From NCBI GenBank assembly GCA_021847855.1, contig JAJZOT010000041.1, positions 1 through 9,489 of the forward strand: a stretch of 9,489 nt of DNA, given 5' to 3'. Numbering within the stretch: position 1 is the first letter of the stretch; every line of letters begins with the position of its first letter. The notes beneath the pieces were generated by a model. It saw only the letters and a list, made by a program, of their open reading frames with translations. It did not search any database and was not told the origin of the DNA. Positions 576-9,489 of this stretch are shown here, one piece after another. The translations under genes and the position numbers were made by a program. This DNA is from Thermoplasmata archaeon (GTDB taxonomy: Archaea; Thermoplasmatota; Thermoplasmata; Thermoplasmatales; Thermoplasmataceae).

Positions 576-3455
576 CTATCCCTTCACTTTCATCTCTCCT
601 ATAATTACTTCGTAAAGTGGGAACAGAATTTTTCTTGCTTCTTCGTCACTGAACCCCAAGACCGATAATATTCCGATGTCAAGGTTTACCCTCATTTCAT
701 TGGAACTTACATACTGGTCAAGAATTGACGGTAATTCTTTATTACAGAGATCATTAAAAAGATTCAATAATTTGGTTTTTGCCTCAGCGTTCAATGCAGA
801 CACATCAAATATGTCGAAGAGCACGAGTTCGCTTTCCATAATGTCGGTGAAGCCTCCCGTTGTCTGTTCCCTGAATGAGAGAATATTTGACATAGTGAGT
901 GTACTGTTTAGAATCAATGTCTGAATTTTGGCCTCAATTGGGTCCCTAAATCTTATCAACTTGAATGTATGGGGAGATAGAATACCATTCTCAGAATAGA
1001 ACGCAAAATGATGGGTATTCTTTGAATTGGGTCTGAATCTCCTGCCCACAACTACATTACTCGTCTTCTTCCGTACATTTTCTCTTTGGTTTGCCCAGTC
1101 AAATGAGCCCCTCCATTTTGAGAGGTTAAGAATTGCCTCAAAATTACCGGGAGGATCGATAAGAACATAATCTATGTCAGAGGCATCCATTGTTTTCACG
1201 GCAGTCAGAGTTCTAAGGGCGGGTTTTAACTTTGATCTTGCTACTGGGAATGATTCATTGAGACCTTTAATTCTTACCATAACAACCTTTTCATTTTCGT
1301 TCTCAACAATTAGGAATGCTCTTTCAATCCGTGAGGTGTCCAAAGGTTTCGTTATGAAAACCAGTTCTGACATTCCCGAAGGGGAGGCATGAAAACCCTC
1401 TGAAACCATGAGGGGGCTTATCTTTGTTAATTTCTTACCGGCCCTTTCTCTTACCCTTGTTAAGAAATCACCCAGAACCTTCTTGTTGGATGTAGATGCA
1501 AAACCGATGATGGGCATTAAATTATTTTCATATCGAGACAGTTTAATCGTTTCCAGGAACTCTGTCTCAACAGTTCCGGTGCTCAAGGGTTCTTTCCTAT
1601 TATATGAATTCTTTATTATTGAAATGAGCCTGCTCACGGCTTCGGGTGGCAGGTTCTTTATAGACGTCTTTATGGTCACGATTGCAGTGTAGTCACCCGG
1701 CATTGGTTTCCGCTTCCTCCCAATGAAAAGTACATCCTTAAACGATGAACCTTCACTGAAAGCCTCATCTTCAAGGGGTTTGACCAAATATTGCAGGGAA
1801 TAGTTCTTAAGCATATATTGTCTGATTTTCTTTGTAGCCTCTCCTCTGGCTATATTTATAGGTATGACCGCCGCCACTTTACCGTCCTTCCTGAGCAGCA
1901 TATCTGAAAGGGCCATAAATGAACCCCATAGGTTCACCCTATTCCCAGAAACCCTATTTAAGACCTCATTTTCATTGATTTTTTCCCTCATTTCAGTCGG
2001 CATCTTCTCTCTATCGGAAAATGGAGGATTCATGATCACCAAGTCCGAGGGGACGAGTGTGAAGCCTTTGCCTTTGCCTTCAGCGGATACTGCACCCCGC
2101 TTCCTAATAACGATATTGTCGCCGGTAAGCTGGCTCTGAATTGTATGCTCAAAACCGGAAATCCTTACCCCTTTTCCAGAACTGAATTCTTTCTTTCTCA
2201 ACTGTTCGGAAAGCGTGAGGGAGTCCATAGATGCAATCCTCACTATATTGGTAGGCTGTTCGATATTCTGCATAGCCAGATTTAATGTGCTGATATGTGC
2301 TGCAAATGGCATCAGGTCTATGCCAGTGATCTCGTTCTCCAGGAACTGTTTGTGTAACTTCTTCAGGTCTTTTGTCCCCTCTGTTTCAATATATAGTTTC
2401 ATTTTAGCTTTGTAACTTGAAACCAATAAAGTGCCTGACCCACAAGCAGGGTCTATAACTGTGGAAGCATAATCATCTATGGCCAGTCCAGTCAAGAGGT
2501 CCGCAGAGTTGGGGTGTGTGTAAAAGGCAGCAAGAATTTTCCTGACTTCAAACGGTATCAGATCGTGAAAAAATCTTCCGACAAGATCGTGAGAAATGTA
2601 CTCTGCCCTCAGGAGCTTTATGGCTTTTATCACTTCATTTATGACATCCAGAACACTCTTGGTTTCGGGAATGTGTGCCAGTAAATTTGTTCTGTATATG
2701 GATTTATAGTCGATCTCTGTGATAAGGTCAAAGTAATTCTGAATATCTTTCAGAGACTCAATTTCCTCCATTTCAGGAAGCTCGTTGCCCTTTGCTTTTT
2801 TTGTGTAGACATGGTAAAACAGCAATTGATTGAAAAGCAAGAATGATGCAAGGCTGATGACCTGGTTCTCTGCTGCTTCCTTCTCCTTTATCTCACCTAT
2901 TGATGCAAAGAGGTCCAGTTTATTGACCACTTCCGCAATCAACTCATCGGTCCTTATCTGATACACAACTGAATTGAGGTCAGTTGCATAGTTTCCAATC
3001 AACTTAACAGCTGATGCAAAATCTACCTTTGACAACTGCTTATCAATTGTAAGTTTTAGTTGCCTCGCCAAAAAATCCAGCGTGATTGCCCTGCTCTCTG
3101 TCCATGATTCAGTCAGCATTATTCCCCAAATTTCACTCTCAATAGCAATGCGTTGAATTGCATTGAAATTTTCAATGGGTGAATTTCTTATGCTATCTGG
3201 ATAAATTAGTATGATAACGTTCTGGGTGTTCAACCTCCTGCCGTAATCATAGGCCTGTGCAACTGCACTAAGGCCGATATTTTCCTTCTTACCTACTTTA
3301 ACCTCGATGACAAAGGTAAGCGAGCCGTATTTGAAAATAATGTCTGGTTCTTTTCCCATTACTATAGTATTGCCAATAGCCTGAAAACCGTTGTTTTCCA
3401 AGTGACTTATGATCGGATTGTAAAGTGTTCTTTCTTCAATTCTGGGCAAGGCCAC
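576..3455 (-). CDS. single-chain restriction-modification enzyme: PD-ExK nuclease-like domain fused to N6-adenine DNA methyltransferase (type IIG-like)
   Basis: This 959-residue protein is predicted to methylate adenine-N6 in a specific DNA site and probably to cut unmodified DNA. Residues 1-125 look like a PD-(D/E)xK nuclease of the HsdR_N type: E36-P-D38, then E51-V-K53 at the end of a beta strand, then Q67-x3-Y71. Residues 130-300 are mainly helical, like the region preceding N6-methyltransferases. Residues 310-580 are the gamma-type methyltransferase core: AFYTHP at 310-315, SAM-binding motif I DPACGSG at 335-341, GIDLMPFAA at 378-386, and catalytic motif IV NPPF at 476-479. Residues 640-900 are the likely target-recognition region. 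The start is GTG (3455-3453): a TAA lies two codons upstream and a TATA-like box sits about 26 bp upstream, which suits a leaderless message. No HsdS-like or helicase gene lies beside it, arguing for a self-contained enzyme. The alternative is an orphan methylase with an inactive nuclease fold. The frame is intact, unlike most of its neighbours. Confidence 0.85.
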   Translation of the reverse strand: MALPRIEERTLYNPIISHLENNGFQAIGNTIVMGKEPDIIFKYGSLTFVIEVKVGKKENIGLSAVAQAYDYGRRLNTQNVIILIYPDSIRNSPIENFNAIQRIAIESEIWGIMLTESWTESRAITLDFLARQLKLTIDKQLSKVDFASAVKLIGNYATDLNSVVYQIRTDELIAEVVNKLDLFASIGEIKEKEAAENQVISLASFLLFNQLLFYHVYTKKAKGNELPEMEEIESLKDIQNYFDLITEIDYKSIYRTNLLAHIPETKSVLDVINEVIKAIKLLRAEYISHDLVGRFFHDLIPFEVRKILAAFYTHPNSADLLTGLAIDDYASTVIDPACGSGTLLVSSYKAKMKLYIETEGTKDLKKLHKQFLENEITGIDLMPFAAHISTLNLAMQNIEQPTNIVRIASMDSLTLSEQLRKKEFSSGKGVRISGFEHTIQSQLTGDNIVIRKRGAVSAEGKGKGFTLVPSDLVIMNPPFSDREKMPTEMREKINENEVLNRVSGNRVNLWGSFMALSDMLLRKDGKVAAVIPINIARGEATKKIRQYMLKNYSLQYLVKPLEDEAFSEGSSFKDVLFIGRKRKPMPGDYTAIVTIKTSIKNLPPEAVSRLISIIKNSYNRKEPLSTGTVETEFLETIKLSRYENNLMPIIGFASTSNKKVLGDFLTRVRERAGKKLTKISPLMVSEGFHASPSGMSELVFITKPLDTSRIERAFLIVENENEKVVMVRIKGLNESFPVARSKLKPALRTLTAVKTMDASDIDYVLIDPPGNFEAILNLSKWRGSFDWANQRENVRKKTSNVVVGRRFRPNSKNTHHFAFYSENGILSPHTFKLIRFRDPIEAKIQTLILNSTLTMSNILSFREQTTGGFTDIMESELVLFDIFDVSALNAEAKTKLLNLFNDLCNKELPSILDQYVSSNEMRVNLDIGILSVLGFSDEEARKILFPLYEVIIGEMKVKG

Positions 3456-3963: not shown

Positions 3964-4116
3964 ATGCCACAATTGCTTGAAGTGTCACATGTATCCAAAA
4001 AGGAAGTGTCCCTGAGAATACCAAAGAAGGCAGCCGAAGCATTGGACCTCAAGGAATGGTACATCGTGGGATTTTACGAGGAAAACGGGAATATTGTCCT
4101 GAGGAAGATGAAATAG
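3964..4116 (+). CDS. small SpoVT/AbrB-type DNA-binding protein (MazE/VapB-like fold)
   Basis: This is a complete 50-residue frame from ATG to TAG. It reads LEVSHVSKKEVSLRIPKKAA, then EALDLKEWYIVGFYEENG and NIVLRKMK. That is the swapped-hairpin AbrB pattern: a beta strand ending in S-L-R-I-P, a short K-A-A-E-A-L helix, L-x-x-x-x-x-V, and a last strand (NIVLRK). Proteins of this fold form dimers that bind promoter DNA as local regulators or as antitoxins. No toxin gene (VapC PIN domain, MazF, RelE) follows within 200 bp, so an orphan regulator or a leftover antitoxin is likely. The length is typical for archaeal single-domain AbrB proteins. A decayed relative with nearly the same C-terminus lies at 5322-5466. 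The start is the only ATG that gives the full domain. Confidence 0.75.
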   Translation: MPQLLEVSHVSKKEVSLRIPKKAAEALDLKEWYIVGFYEENGNIVLRKMK

Positions 4117-5321: not shown

Positions 5322-5466
5322 ATGAAAGGAGGTTTTCTGATCGTATTCCATAACGTGTAGAGTACGAGGTCCAGGAAAGGCTGTCGAAGTACTGAATCTC
5401 AGGGAAAGAGACATCGTGGAATTTTACGAGGACAGCGGCAACATTATCCTGAAAAAGATGAAATAA
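5322..5466 (+). pseudogene. decayed second copy of the AbrB-like gene
   Basis: The frame 5341-5466 reads ITCRVRGPGKAVEVLNLRER, DIVEFYEDSGNIILKKMK. It aligns with the intact protein at 3964-4116 over the helix and last strands: the intact FYEENGNIVLRKMK corresponds to FYEDSGNIILKKMK here. The frame has no start codon, because a TGA lies directly upstream (5338-5340). The likely original start is the ATG at 5322, which is now in another frame and stops after 12 codons at a TAG. The K-K-E-V-S-L-R-I-P strand of the intact copy is corrupted. It is therefore a frame-shifted paralogue, not expected to be functional. Confidence 0.6.
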
Positions 5467-5749: not shown

Positions 5750-6163
5750 TCACACCCATTCCCATATATCCTTGCTGTAATCGCCCACGTAGCTTAGATC
5801 GAAATGCAGGTCCGGATGATCCCCGGACACTTTGAAGAGGATGTCCAGGTATTCTTTCAGCAGCGACTTGGGCATGAAGGCCAAAGCCCTGAGCTTTCCC
5901 CCGGCGATCTTCATGATGGTCCCTGCCCTAGGTATGTGTGCAGCATTGGCGCTGTTCCGCACGAGGTTGACGAACGGTGCTGTGACATCGGCAAGGTAGA
6001 TGCCGTTGTCACTGGGAAGCGGCCGCCATGAATCAGGAACGGTGGAGGAAGGGCATATGGCAATGCTCCTGAGTGAATCCTTCAGGAGTGCCCTGTACTT
6101 TTCAATTCCATCAATGTGTGCATACTGTTCATCATACACAAAATATCCGGATGATTCCATCAT
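5750..6163 (-). CDS. chimeric frame: transposase catalytic start fused to the C-terminal part of an unidentified GC-rich gene
   Basis: The 137-residue frame has two unlike parts. Residues 1-30 (SSGYFVYDEQYAHIDG, KYRALLKDS) are the first catalytic block of a DDE transposase, continuing the zinc-ribbon frame at 6160-6648. From about residue 31 the DNA becomes GC-rich. The protein then reads DSWRPLPSDNGIYLADVTAP, FVNLVRNSANAAHIPRAG, GKLRALAFMPKSLLKEYLDI and SGDHPDLHFDLSYVGDYSKD. This does not resemble the transposase continuation I would expect, and I do not recognise it. The change falls near 6074, inside a 7-bp inverted repeat (6066-6088). The likely history is that a deletion or insertion joined a truncated transposase to the tail of another gene, whose own start is lost. 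The downstream partner is the 66-residue gene at 5512-5712. The frame is uninterrupted, so a fusion protein could be made, but I doubt it is functional. Confidence 0.5.
   Translation of the reverse strand: MMESSGYFVYDEQYAHIDGIEKYRALLKDSLRSIAICPSSTVPDSWRPLPSDNGIYLADVTAPFVNLVRNSANAAHIPRAGTIMKIAGGKLRALAFMPKSLLKEYLDILFKVSGDHPDLHFDLSYVGDYSKDIWEWV
6066..6088. repeat. inverted repeat at the transposase/GC-rich junction
   Basis: CTCCTGA (6066-6072) and TCAGGAG (6082-6088) are perfect 7-bp inverted copies separated by nine bases. The protein-level switch from transposase to unrelated sequence falls in the spacer. It may be a recombination scar or chance. Confidence 0.4.
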
Positions 6164-6648
6164 TCCTGACGGTGATGGCTGTACATATTTCTTGATAGTG
6201 TTTCATGGGACATGATCACGTTCCCGATGATTCGAAAGAGGTCTGCTGCCTTCCTCAGGGATGTCTTAACCCTAGTCCTGACAATCTTCTCCCTGATTTT
6301 ATCAGGGTAATGCTTTCCATAACCGTAGATCGGAGGACGTGCAACAAATGAATATCTGCAGTCATTGCAGATGCATCTCTGAACCCGGAATACTGTACCA
6401 TTCTCCATGGTTCTGATGCAGGTTCCATTCCTCACCACGTTCTTGGATCGGCACTGGGGGCACATTGGATTCTTGAAACAGATCAGATCGTTTTCCTTAA
6501 GTTCCATGTCCATCATCGGTATGTTATTTACCGGAAAGACGGTAGAAGAATTCACTGAGACATAATCGTCAAGAGATGTAGAAACTCTCCTGAACTCAGT
6601 GTATGGAGCCTTCCTTAGTCGCATGTCAGGATTTCGGTACCGAAGCAC
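6074..6648 (-). pseudogene. truncated, frame-shifted IS transposase with N-terminal zinc ribbon
   Basis: The first frame (6648 to TGA at 6162-6160, 162 residues) starts at GTG, with an ATG nine codons in as an alternative. It carries a zinc ribbon: C63-P-Q-C66, C77, then C92-I-C94-N-D-C97. A basic helix-turn-helix follows (KTSLRKAADLFRIIG, then IMSHETLSR at about 147-153). Family proteins continue as ETxRKYV. Here that continuation (KYVQPSPSGMMESSGYFVYD) is found one frame over, so a frameshift near 6190 splits the gene. The second frame holds the first catalytic block, DEQYAHIDG, with YRALLKD, then changes into unrelated GC-rich sequence near 6074. The second and third acidic catalytic residues are therefore missing. 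The two frames overlap as ATGA, which would permit re-initiation, but the lost catalytic domain makes the element immobile unless helped in trans. Confidence 0.7.
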
Positions 6649-6673: not shown

Positions 6674-9489
6674 ATGACAATGTCAGAAGATAAAAGAATT
6701 TATAAACAAACAGTGGCTAAGTTTGTGTTGTCCAAGGTAGAAGTTTTGAAAAAATTTGTTAAGGAAAATGCCCTTTTTTTAACATCAGTAAACGCTAGTT
6801 CAGAAGGTGCAAAGCACCTTATGAGAACCTTCTTGGATAAACACAACTTCAAGTCAGAAGACCGGTTCAAACTTAATGATGTTATTGACGAGGTCCTGAA
6901 TCTAATACTGAAACATAGTTATGAAACATTTGATGATTTTGTTGAAGATGTCAGAAAGATTCCATTCTTAAGAGAAAGGGCTCCGGAAACTAAGTTGAAA
7001 ATATTGTTTGATTCAAACACTTCACCATCGCAAACAATAATCAAACCCGAAGACCTGACTAAATTAGAAAACGATGAGTTTTTGAAGAGTTTGGAGGAAA
7101 AATACAAGCAAAAAGTCACAAAAGAATTGCAGGACCAGATTAACGAAAAACTCAATGAGTTAAATAGAAGGATAGAAGAATTTGAAACAGAAAAGAAAGA
7201 TTATGAAAAATTCAAGAGCGGACTAGACAGTATTCCACTTAGCATTTCATTGGACGAACTCGTTGAAAAATATCCCTCATCCATGGATAACGAGGTTCAG
7301 AGGAGTTCGGCCGATTGGTGGGAGGAAGCGGTTTTGACCGGTGACCCATTCCCTTCAAACTTGGGTCTCACGGGGATATCCCCTGAAAAATATGGGGAGA
7401 TTGTAGTGGAAACTCCTTTTATTAGGGACTATATAGACAAGGCAAGTAAAGGGTCTAAAACCTTGATGGGAAAAACCACTTTGTTGTTGGGGGAATTTGG
7501 ATCTGGCAAAACAACCCTATTTCAGTATCTCTCATATAAAGTGTCTATAGGGAAAATACTCCCAATAAACGTTATATTGAATCCTGGTCCTAGGATAGTG
7601 GATTTGACTTCTTCAATGTTGCAGCAAATATACAAAGGTGCCGCTGAGACTTACAAAGTTAGGATAGGGATTGATCCAAGAAGAGAAGACTCTGGACGAG
7701 ATTTAGCAATCGACATCACAAATACACTAACTTCTCTTTCTAGGGAAAATGTCACAGAGGGTTTCCTAGTATTGCTTGACGGGCTTCATAAAGGAAATTC
7801 TTATGAAAACCAAGTTTTTGAGTTTCTCCAACAGATACAGAACGTGCAAGAATATTTCTCGCAGCAGTCAATACAAATAGGATTCATTATAGCAGGTTCA
7901 ATGCGATGGAAGAATGAGATAGTCAATATACCCTCACTTTCTGGGAGTTTTTATGCAATAAACGTTATCCCACCAATCACCGCTGAATATGCGGTAATGG
8001 CCTTTAAGAAGAGGATAAAGTCCTTTTCCAGTGATGCTAGCGATGAACCTGTAATAAGGGACGATACAAGCCTACTGGGTGTATTTGAATTACTTCAAAG
8101 GAGACTAGTCCGTGAAGTTACTTTTCGGGACTTTCTGGATTACGTTAGACAGAGGCTCGATGCCAGAAATTACAAGGAATTGGGAGTGGAGGTTGCTCTT
8201 CATCTGGAGATTGTTACAGATGTCAGATCCATATTGAACAAGTCGATCATAGGAGGAAATTATAGGGCCTTGTGGGCAGAACTGTATAAAAAACCATTTT
8301 TGAAAGCACACTGCAAAGATATAATGAGACTGGCATTCAAACATGGTATTGCTGAAGATACTCTGCTCTTCAAGGACAATAAAGCTTCATTTTTCCTTTT
8401 AAGGCGTTATGGTTTTCTCTATCAAGTGAGAGTTGATGGCGAGGAATCGTTCAGGTGGTATCCCTCGTCTGAAGTAGTGTTTGCGACAACACAAGTTTGT
8501 AAATCACTCTACATATCTCCAAACAGAGCACTTTCAGCTGCCTTTGAAGAAGAAGCATCTGTCATGAAAGATGAAACTGTGACTATCTATGCGGGGGTAA
8601 TAAGAACACTTTCAGAGGTAATTTCAGCATGGTCTGATACTTTCCCGGATATCACACAGAGACTACAAGAAGCAAAAGCCACACTTACGCAGATAGGGGA
8701 AATAGTCTCTCATGCGAATGTTGATCTTCTCACACCAATTCTGATTTCAAAACCAGTTAAAATTCTAATAGAGTCGATAGTGCAATTCGTCTATGGTACT
8801 GAAATTGACGCGGATAAGATATGGGATTATTTCTCTAATTCTTGGGTATCACCTGAGAATTTCGATTCGATTAAACAGTATGCATACTGGGAGACAGCTA
8901 TCCCTCGACAACAAACACCTTTGTATGGTCTATTGCAGCAGCACAGCCAGATAATGACTGATTTGTTAAGAATTTTGATCGATGTAGTGAGAGGTGAAGG
9001 TGTTTCCAGATTGCTCGGCAGAACACTCTCTTTTTCTGATTTGCAGAGAATCCACATCATGAGAAAATTATTTCTGGACCAATCTTACGCTGAAGTGGCA
9101 GATAAAATGACCACATTAATGGAGGAAAGGTTCAGAGAGACTGTCTTCCCAGCATTGAGAGCGATTTGGGGTGATAAAGCAACAAAACTGCTTCCTAAAG
9201 ACTTAATTGATGAAATTGGAAGAGCCGGCGAACGGGGCCATCCGGATTTAATTCGTTCGACTCACCCTAACTTTCTTTATGATATATCCAGAAGTGAATA
9301 TTCCAAAGTCCTCTTTACTGGGGATATATACAAAGCTTTACTTGGAAGTCGGAACAATACTCCTCAGGAGAAAGAAAGAATCAAAAAATCCTTTGAATTG
9401 GCCTCTTCTTTAAATGACAGGGTTGCACATCGAGATGAGGCATCTTACTTTGCAGATAATGCAGTAAATATTGGTGCAACTCTAGCCTT
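6674..9489 (+). CDS. large P-loop ATPase with coiled coil and C-terminal HEPN-like region (partial, runs off the window)
   Basis: The frame is open from a TAA at 6668-6670 to the last base and encodes at least 938 residues. Residues 1-125 are helical and unrecognised. Residues 128-183 are a charged coiled coil (for example QINEKLNELNRRIEEFETEK). Residues 213-250 lead into the ATPase (DWWEEAV, DPFPSNLGLTGI, EIVVETPFI). Walker A is GEFGSGKT at 273-280 with K279. Walker B is FLVLLDG at 364-370 with D369, and IIAGSMRWK at 405-413 resembles the sensor strand of Orc/STAND-type ATPases. Residues 430-800 are mostly helical. Near the end GRAGERGHPDLIRSTHPNF and SSLNDRVAHRDEASYFADNA recall Swt1-like HEPN domains, with N914 where the usual Arg of the R-N-x-x-A-H motif would be and H919 kept. 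Predicted role: ATP-driven sensing or remodelling in defence, by inference from architecture. The start is uncertain: ATG 6674 or 6680, or GTG 6725 if the internal TATA box is used. Its true 3' end and neighbours are outside the window. Confidence 0.8.
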   Translation, partial: MTMSEDKRIYKQTVAKFVLSKVEVLKKFVKENALFLTSVNASSEGAKHLMRTFLDKHNFKSEDRFKLNDVIDEVLNLILKHSYETFDDFVEDVRKIPFLRERAPETKLKILFDSNTSPSQTIIKPEDLTKLENDEFLKSLEEKYKQKVTKELQDQINEKLNELNRRIEEFETEKKDYEKFKSGLDSIPLSISLDELVEKYPSSMDNEVQRSSADWWEEAVLTGDPFPSNLGLTGISPEKYGEIVVETPFIRDYIDKASKGSKTLMGKTTLLLGEFGSGKTTLFQYLSYKVSIGKILPINVILNPGPRIVDLTSSMLQQIYKGAAETYKVRIGIDPRREDSGRDLAIDITNTLTSLSRENVTEGFLVLLDGLHKGNSYENQVFEFLQQIQNVQEYFSQQSIQIGFIIAGSMRWKNEIVNIPSLSGSFYAINVIPPITAEYAVMAFKKRIKSFSSDASDEPVIRDDTSLLGVFELLQRRLVREVTFRDFLDYVRQRLDARNYKELGVEVALHLEIVTDVRSILNKSIIGGNYRALWAELYKKPFLKAHCKDIMRLAFKHGIAEDTLLFKDNKASFFLLRRYGFLYQVRVDGEESFRWYPSSEVVFATTQVCKSLYISPNRALSAAFEEEASVMKDETVTIYAGVIRTLSEVISAWSDTFPDITQRLQEAKATLTQIGEIVSHANVDLLTPILISKPVKILIESIVQFVYGTEIDADKIWDYFSNSWVSPENFDSIKQYAYWETAIPRQQTPLYGLLQQHSQIMTDLLRILIDVVRGEGVSRLLGRTLSFSDLQRIHIMRKLFLDQSYAEVADKMTTLMEERFRETVFPALRAIWGDKATKLLPKDLIDEIGRAGERGHPDLIRSTHPNFLYDISRSEYSKVLFTGDIYKALLGSRNNTPQEKERIKKSFELASSLNDRVAHRDEASYFADNAVNIGATLA
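6699..6706 (+). promoter_or_regulatory. TATA-like box inside the 5' end of the ATPase frame
   Basis: TTTATAAA is centred near 6702.5, giving an expected transcription start near 6728, at in-frame GTG (6725) and TTG (6728) codons. No TATA box lies the right distance before the ATGs at 6674 and 6680; only AGGAAG at 6654-6659 precedes them, 14 bases away from the first. The first 17 codons may therefore not be translated. Confidence 0.35.

Follow-up and report, generated by a model that had tools for sequence, protein, structure and literature searches.

Introduction

What does a very large ATPase with a HEPN tail do in an archaeon? The question is raised by a stretch of 9,489 nucleotides from a Thermoplasmata archaeon (contig JAJZOT010000041.1 of assembly GCA_021847855.1; the whole stretch is here called the window), on the forward strand of which a gene for an AAA+ ATPase-HEPN protein (6674..9487) runs for 938 codons and is still open at the window end, its near-identical relatives being 1075 amino acids long. 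A sequence-only reading had put it forward as a possible undescribed defence protein, and our analysis supports that suggestion: no full-length match to a housekeeping family was found, and the genes around it do not regularly lie away from defence regions. Immunity in archaea has been little described (PMC12988326). We consider it probable that the gene encodes a single-gene archaeal immune receptor working like the NLR/STAND proteins, in which an ORC/Cdc6-like engine would sense an invader and oligomerise, and the HEPN domain would cut RNA.

Results

The family and its ATPase core

A search of 5.8 billion proteins, with scoring restricted to the 7992 candidates that had most words in common with the query, returned 28 homologues of the window protein, and 25 of these (P0001-P0025) have lengths of 982-1089 amino acids and align over 91-100% of it. 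They show that the frame, which had been noted as intact over at least 938 codons, is a coding sequence, and its conservation across relatives points to selection. The window protein is matched at all but one and four residues by P0001 and P0002, respectively, both of 1075 amino acids, and because they are nearly identical to it, the last 137 residues, which lie beyond the window, were judged from them. Residue 220 (window 7331-7333), which hardly varies in the family, is Val in the window protein and Gly in both P0001 and P0002; this may reflect either an error in the sequence or an uncommon variant.

No model in Pfam, NCBIfam or PADLOC matched the window protein above its cut-off or over more than part of its length. 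Across 24 members, AAA_22 matched all 24, and the BrxC_BrxD, NACHT and nSTAND models matched 12-14, weakly. Sequence searches of the PDB gave chance-level matches (best E 0.55 and 0.039), scans of viral contigs found no relative, and no description of the family was found in the literature as represented by titles and the beginnings of abstracts. The data support the reading as a large HEPN-tailed ATPase without a family model of its own.

The coiled coil and P-loop core proposed from the sequence alone were both recovered. An N-terminal helical domain (residues 20-115; 6731..7018, forward strand, as are all parts of the gene), seen in the AF2 model and the alignments, is followed in the model by a long helix, a probable coiled coil (residues 134-178; 7073..7207), and by an ORC/Cdc6-like AAA+ ATPase core (residues 210-504; 7301..8185). 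The core has an AAA+ fold with a Walker A motif, GEFGSGKT (residues 273-280; 7490..7513), in which G273, G276, G278 and K279 are invariant, and a Walker B strand, FLVLLDG (residues 364-370; 7763..7783), followed by LHK, with D369-K373 invariant. Its closest fold is that of ORC/Cdc6, and TnsC, MuB, BrxC and the NRC4 resistosome were also matched in the fold search. In the predicted secondary structure of the AF2 model, the ATPase lid is followed by a region resembling a winged helix (residues 564-612; 8363..8509); some ORC/Cdc6 alignments extend to residues 605-630, but with a high rmsd (16-18 A). Part of residues 430-800, which had earlier been left without a family, can now be read as the ATPase lid and the winged-helix-like region.

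The HEPN tail

The HEPN domain (residues 781-957; 9014..9487, cut at residue 938 by the window end) was recognised by the fold search with the domain of the relative L002 and by the HEPN_Swt1 match of the relative L048; most of it lies inside the window, which stops after His919. The full-length fold search was uninformative on the tail because the ATPase filled the match list, and the tail was therefore modelled alone, using the same domain of L002. This isolated domain has a four-helix HEPN fold, and in VIA-align seven of the eight best rows were HEPN proteins, namely 2jpu and 2q00 (one protein), four rows of Csm6, which we take to be HEPN proteins, and one row of 1wwp. Both 2q00 and 1wwp are described as HEPN (PMC3710099). 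Foldseek returned no match at E<=0.001 for the isolated tail. The HEPN reading is based on VIA-align 2, the topology, the conserved residues and the link through L048.

That link is to a distant relative, the residues 689-798 of which match Pfam HEPN_Swt1 (E 2.7e-5, 24.8 bits against a cut-off of 27.5) and include the motif RNPWAH (residues 791-796), with its His in the column of His919. The relative L005 reached 12.8 bits with the same model, also below the cut-off, and the window protein had no match to HEPN models at E<=1. The Swt1-type resemblance noted earlier gains sequence support through L048, itself below cut-off, but not from the window protein directly.

Conserved residues were read from an alignment of 79 rows, which includes further relatives from a search with a broader alignment (33 proteins) and from a third search (16). 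Forty-three rows have His919 and 34 are readable without it; P0070 and P0072, which stop short of the HEPN domain, could not be read there. The near copy P0002, the 680-residue fragment P0057 and the partial genes L030 and L047 were left out, and L006 was counted as P0029. The partial gene L030 (9420-11324 in genome G135) matches from about residue 426 on, lacks most of the ATPase core and has a DUF1828 gene directly upstream.

The predicted catalytic His, H919 (9428..9430), stands at the end of HEPN helix 3; in the AF2 model it ends the helices 897-915/917-920 and precedes helix 930-957. In helix 2, E817-x3-R821 (9122..9136; each residue in 40 of the 43 His-bearing rows) resembles the Ex3[KR] element reported from HEPN domains (PMC3710099). 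The Arg of the Rx4-6H motif is missing: an Arg stands five residues ahead of the His in one of the 43 rows, that of L048. Most HEPN families have this Arg, but it is not obligatory in the superfamily, since PaREP1/8 and c2405 keep the His without it (PMC3710099). The conservation of R873 and Y876, which lie in an insert before helix 3 (9290..9301), in 42 of the 43 rows each makes this pair a candidate replacement for the missing Arg.

Proposed effector turnover across the family

Relatives that share the chassis carry TIR, TIR and AlbA_2, AlbA_2, or an N-terminal metallophosphoesterase, and the loss of the HEPN residues is associated with the presence of these other effectors. The His itself was the criterion for the 43-row group, and the independent observations are R873 (42 rows), Y876 (42), E817 (40), N866 (43) and the domain content, an added effector being identified in none of the 43. 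In the TIR/AlbA_2 clade (21 rows), R873, Y876 and H919 are absent throughout, E817 is found in three rows and N866 in eight. Of the 13 rows readable in the phosphoesterase clade, none has R873 or H919, one has Y876 and three have E817. The structural residues W724 and G833 are each present in 21/21 rows of the TIR clade and in 13/14 and 12/13, respectively, of the phosphoesterase clade. A precomputed Pfam match to TIR, AlbA_2 or Metallophos was available for 29 of the 34 rows without the His (16/21 in the TIR/AlbA_2 clade and 13/13 in the phosphoesterase clade). Of the other five, P0047 has an AlbA_2 just below cut-off (24.4 against 25.3 bits), and the remaining four show no added effector that is both identified and intact: P0035 ends before the TIR, P0036 breaks off inside its start, and P0050 and P0051 have no Pfam match in their tails. 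By eye, the tails of the last two have a PD-(D/E)xK look.

Mean pairwise identity follows the same division. In the His group it is higher in the HEPN domain (0.303) than in residues 505-780 (0.229) and in the C-terminal winged helix (0.180); in the group without the His (21 rows), the HEPN domain (0.324) falls below residues 505-780 (0.407) and is level with the C-terminal winged helix (0.320). On both quick trees, in which rows gapped at the His column were counted as lacking the His, the pattern corresponds to two changes; for the first tree, a test of its 22 rows without the His as one clade did not reject that grouping (p-AU 0.0535). These sequences suggest that the His was lost at least once, probably twice.

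A similar decay may have befallen the TIR domain. Its catalytic Glu, which we take to be the E of SxWxxxE, is E in all nine TIR-terminal proteins and D in five of the six that continue into a further domain, P0033 keeping the Glu despite such a domain. A catalytic Glu is needed in TIR NADases (PMC7282519). In the last 150 residues of P0033 and P0048, behind the TIR, the motif RNPPSHG looks by eye like a second canonical HEPN motif, with no Pfam match. The protein at L046 retains the HEPN residues despite an extra tail without a Pfam match. The N-terminal metallophosphoesterase was seen on the same chassis in 15 proteins (P0058-P0072), one of them from Promethearchaeota; the motifs DxH, GD, GNHD and GHxH are present in the three of the 15 that were checked.

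We lean towards the hypothesis of a conserved archaeal receptor chassis that has borne successive effectors. The ancestral one would be the HEPN RNase, its site partly rebuilt from the Arg-Tyr pair. Other lineages would have added a TIR at the C-terminus or a metallophosphoesterase at the N-terminus, upon which the HEPN residues would decay while the fold stays, and where an AlbA_2 or second HEPN-like tail comes after the TIR, the TIR Glu would decay in turn.

Distribution and neighbourhoods

A scan of 84,980 species genomes, with a reach limited by the two peptide patterns used, found eight loci of the family, all archaeal. Strong matches were found in 5/389 genomes of the phylum of G003 (Thermoplasmata) and in 5/194 of a second draw, in 1/398 genomes of the phylum of G007 and in 6/227 of the phylum of G005; the phylum of G003 had 13 matches at E<=0.001, of which the other eight are confined to the ATPase core. 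The distribution is patchy and archaeal, and we count it for the receptor reading.

Neighbours were scanned in part at 11 loci, L006 and L046 not being among them, and defence-type genes lie near six: the window, L001, L002, L004, L005 and L030. At L001 these are NucS, EVE and a RiboL-PSP HEPN match below cut-off, at L004 an N6-methyltransferase, DpnI and NucS, at L005 OLD, HerA and SbcCD-like genes, and at L030 HSDR_N. At L002, HsdM, HsdS and HsdR are followed on the same strand, 36 bases after HsdR, by the ATPase gene as the fourth, and downstream by AAA_21 and HNH genes, which we take to be Septu-like. The partial scans of L003, L031, L045, L047 and L048 revealed no defence-type genes.

The window itself has, on the reverse strand at 576-3455, an N6-adenine methyltransferase of restriction type (959 amino acids), which looks whole, gave type IIG- and PglX-like matches and, by eye, has a PD-(D/E)xK look at its N-terminus. 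The methyltransferase at L004 is a relative (28% identity over 881 amino acids) and lies about 0.13 kb from the ATPase gene, the distance in the window being about 3.2 kb.

These genes bear on the first rival explanation, that the protein serves a restriction-modification (RM) system as its guard or as a backup subunit, silent while RM works, its HEPN RNase being released when a virus blocks restriction. PrrC is such a guard of its type I RM enzyme. The four-gene order at L002 favours this explanation, as do the methyltransferases of one family near the ATPase genes of the window and L004, and the RM linkage would allow a guard role at L002. However, no more than 2/14 genomes have an N6_Mtase match at a distance of up to 10 kb from the ATPase gene, many contigs being short, against about 0.5/14 expected by chance on a rough hand estimate. 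Furthermore, relatives of the window methyltransferase (E<=1e-30, 31-59% identity) occur in 5/378 genomes, none with an ATPase match, and no relative of the ATPase turned up at E<=1e-6 in the 16-19.5 kb surrounding three of them. We rate the guard explanation unlikely. A fixed methyltransferase-ATPase partnership was rejected on the same counts, although L004 does carry both.

The remaining frames of the window include incomplete pieces of a phage-type integrase (240-422, profile 6-65 of 172), a Ta1207-family protein (5750-6163, profile 185-275 of 277) and an IS1/ISH6-like transposase (6160-6648, profile 52-154 of 414), which suggests a host among the Thermoplasmata and a mobile region that has decayed. 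A segment of 89 nucleotides from a MazE/AbrB-type antitoxin frame occurs twice (4027-4115 and 5377-5465), the copies being 80% identical and 1350 bases apart. The earlier impression that the small neighbouring genes have decayed fits the three incomplete pieces but not the MazE/AbrB-type frame of 50 amino acids, which looks whole.

Discussion

How might such a receptor work? The ORC/Cdc6-like AAA+ engine, with its winged-helix-like parts, would sense the invader, probably through a DNA- or replication-associated signal, bind ATP and oligomerise. The assembly would bring the C-terminal HEPN domains together, and the paired domains would cut cellular RNA, so that the infected cell is stopped. 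Computation shows the family, its domain anatomy, the HEPN fold and the link between lost HEPN residues and another effector domain; that the tail is an RNase, that oligomerisation switches it on, what triggers it and that it acts against viruses we infer from the domains and their conservation. A defence role is likely, and we put it no higher because defence-type genes lie near just six of the 11 loci, although these six, L002 with HsdM-HsdS-HsdR directly upstream among them, speak for the receptor hypothesis.

A second explanation is that the protein acts in replication, segregation or repair as an ORC-like factor, with a HEPN domain that only binds RNA or serves as a scaffold. The fold of the core is closest to ORC/Cdc6, and HEPN domains without the motif have been proposed to be non-catalytic RNA binders (PMC3710099), but the gene occurs in about 1-3% of the archaeal genomes searched, its relatives bear TIR, AlbA_2 and phosphoesterase domains, and H919, R873 and Y876 are strictly conserved only where no other effector was identified, so that we regard this explanation as improbable. 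Least probable of all is a subunit of a BREX-related (DUF499/Hma-like) system targeting DNA rather than RNA, given that the family has no relation to the DUF499 profile beyond the P-loop, no PglZ was seen among the neighbours scanned in part, and the methyltransferase is not linked.

The family unites, on a single chassis that spans Thermoplasmata, Nitrososphaerota-type and Asgard archaea, an ATPase of the ORC/Cdc6 clade with domains of four kinds: HEPN, TIR, AlbA_2 and phosphoesterase. Its sequences may preserve a legible history of effectors being replaced, the outgoing one keeping its fold but not its active-site residues, and the named residues H919, R873 and Y876 make the RNase prediction directly testable.

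Comparison with known systems

The DUF499 proteins of BREX-related/Hma systems likewise join an ORC/Cdc6-type AAA+ ATPase to a HEPN domain of the Swt1/Abi2 type (PMC3710099; PMC12839542), and the sequence-only reading had looked to them for a parallel. Membership was rejected: hhalign of the family alignment A1 against five archaeal DUF499 proteins gave a probability of 0.7 (percent scale) and an E of 0.078 over 25 columns at the P-loop. The HEPN domain is N-terminal in the DUF499 ATPases and C-terminal here, and the fixed methyltransferase-helicase partner of those systems is lacking, an N6-methyltransferase being near in the two genomes mentioned and the L002 genes being the type I HsdM, HsdS and HsdR.

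With PaREP1/8 (2q00/2jpu) and the Swt1-like HEPN domains (PF18731), the tail shares the HEPN fold, the His at the end of helix 3 and Ex3R in helix 2. PaREP1/8 likewise keeps the His without the Arg, and has other conserved basic residues (PMC3710099). The window protein differs from both in its fusion behind an ORC-like ATPase, in the Arg and Tyr before helix 3 and in having no Pfam HEPN match.

Among defence systems, PADLOC gave no full model match, the window protein matching mad8 (E 3.5e-4) and LeoBC (E 0.033) in part; its TIR-bearing relatives match the TIR parts of PADLOC models (PDC-S66 in 4/13 members). PrrC, an RM-linked HEPN nuclease, resembles the family in the pairing of ATPase and HEPN and, at L002, in the RM linkage, but its ATPase is of the ABC type, and no type I RM operon was seen at most other loci of the family. 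The prokaryotic NLR/STAND receptors (Avs, TIR-NLR) consist of one large NTPase with exchangeable effector domains, as does the family. The models nSTAND3, NACHT and nSTAND_NTPase5 match 14/24, 12/24 and 12/24 members weakly (nSTAND3 best E 2e-4), and the window protein stays below the cut-offs (nSTAND_NTPase5 13.0 against 34 bits, NACHT 12.5 against 26.7). Unlike these receptors, the family has its closest fold in ORC/Cdc6, carries the effector C-terminally except in the phosphoesterase type, and retains the old effector as a fold.

Closest in kind are the ORC/Cdc6 ATPases of conflict systems, which are fused to STAND, pentapeptide-repeat or TIR domains and have been proposed to act against invaders (PMC10853773). 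They share with the family the ORC/Cdc6-clade ATPase and, in some members, the TIR, and are set apart, by their description, in adjoining a second Orc/CDC6 and a KAP NTPase, or HerA/REase; the available text does not mention HEPN as an ancestral effector. Since such ATPases fused to TIR/STAND in conflict loci have been described, the kind is already known, and the new part looks to be the HEPN chassis together with its pattern of decay.
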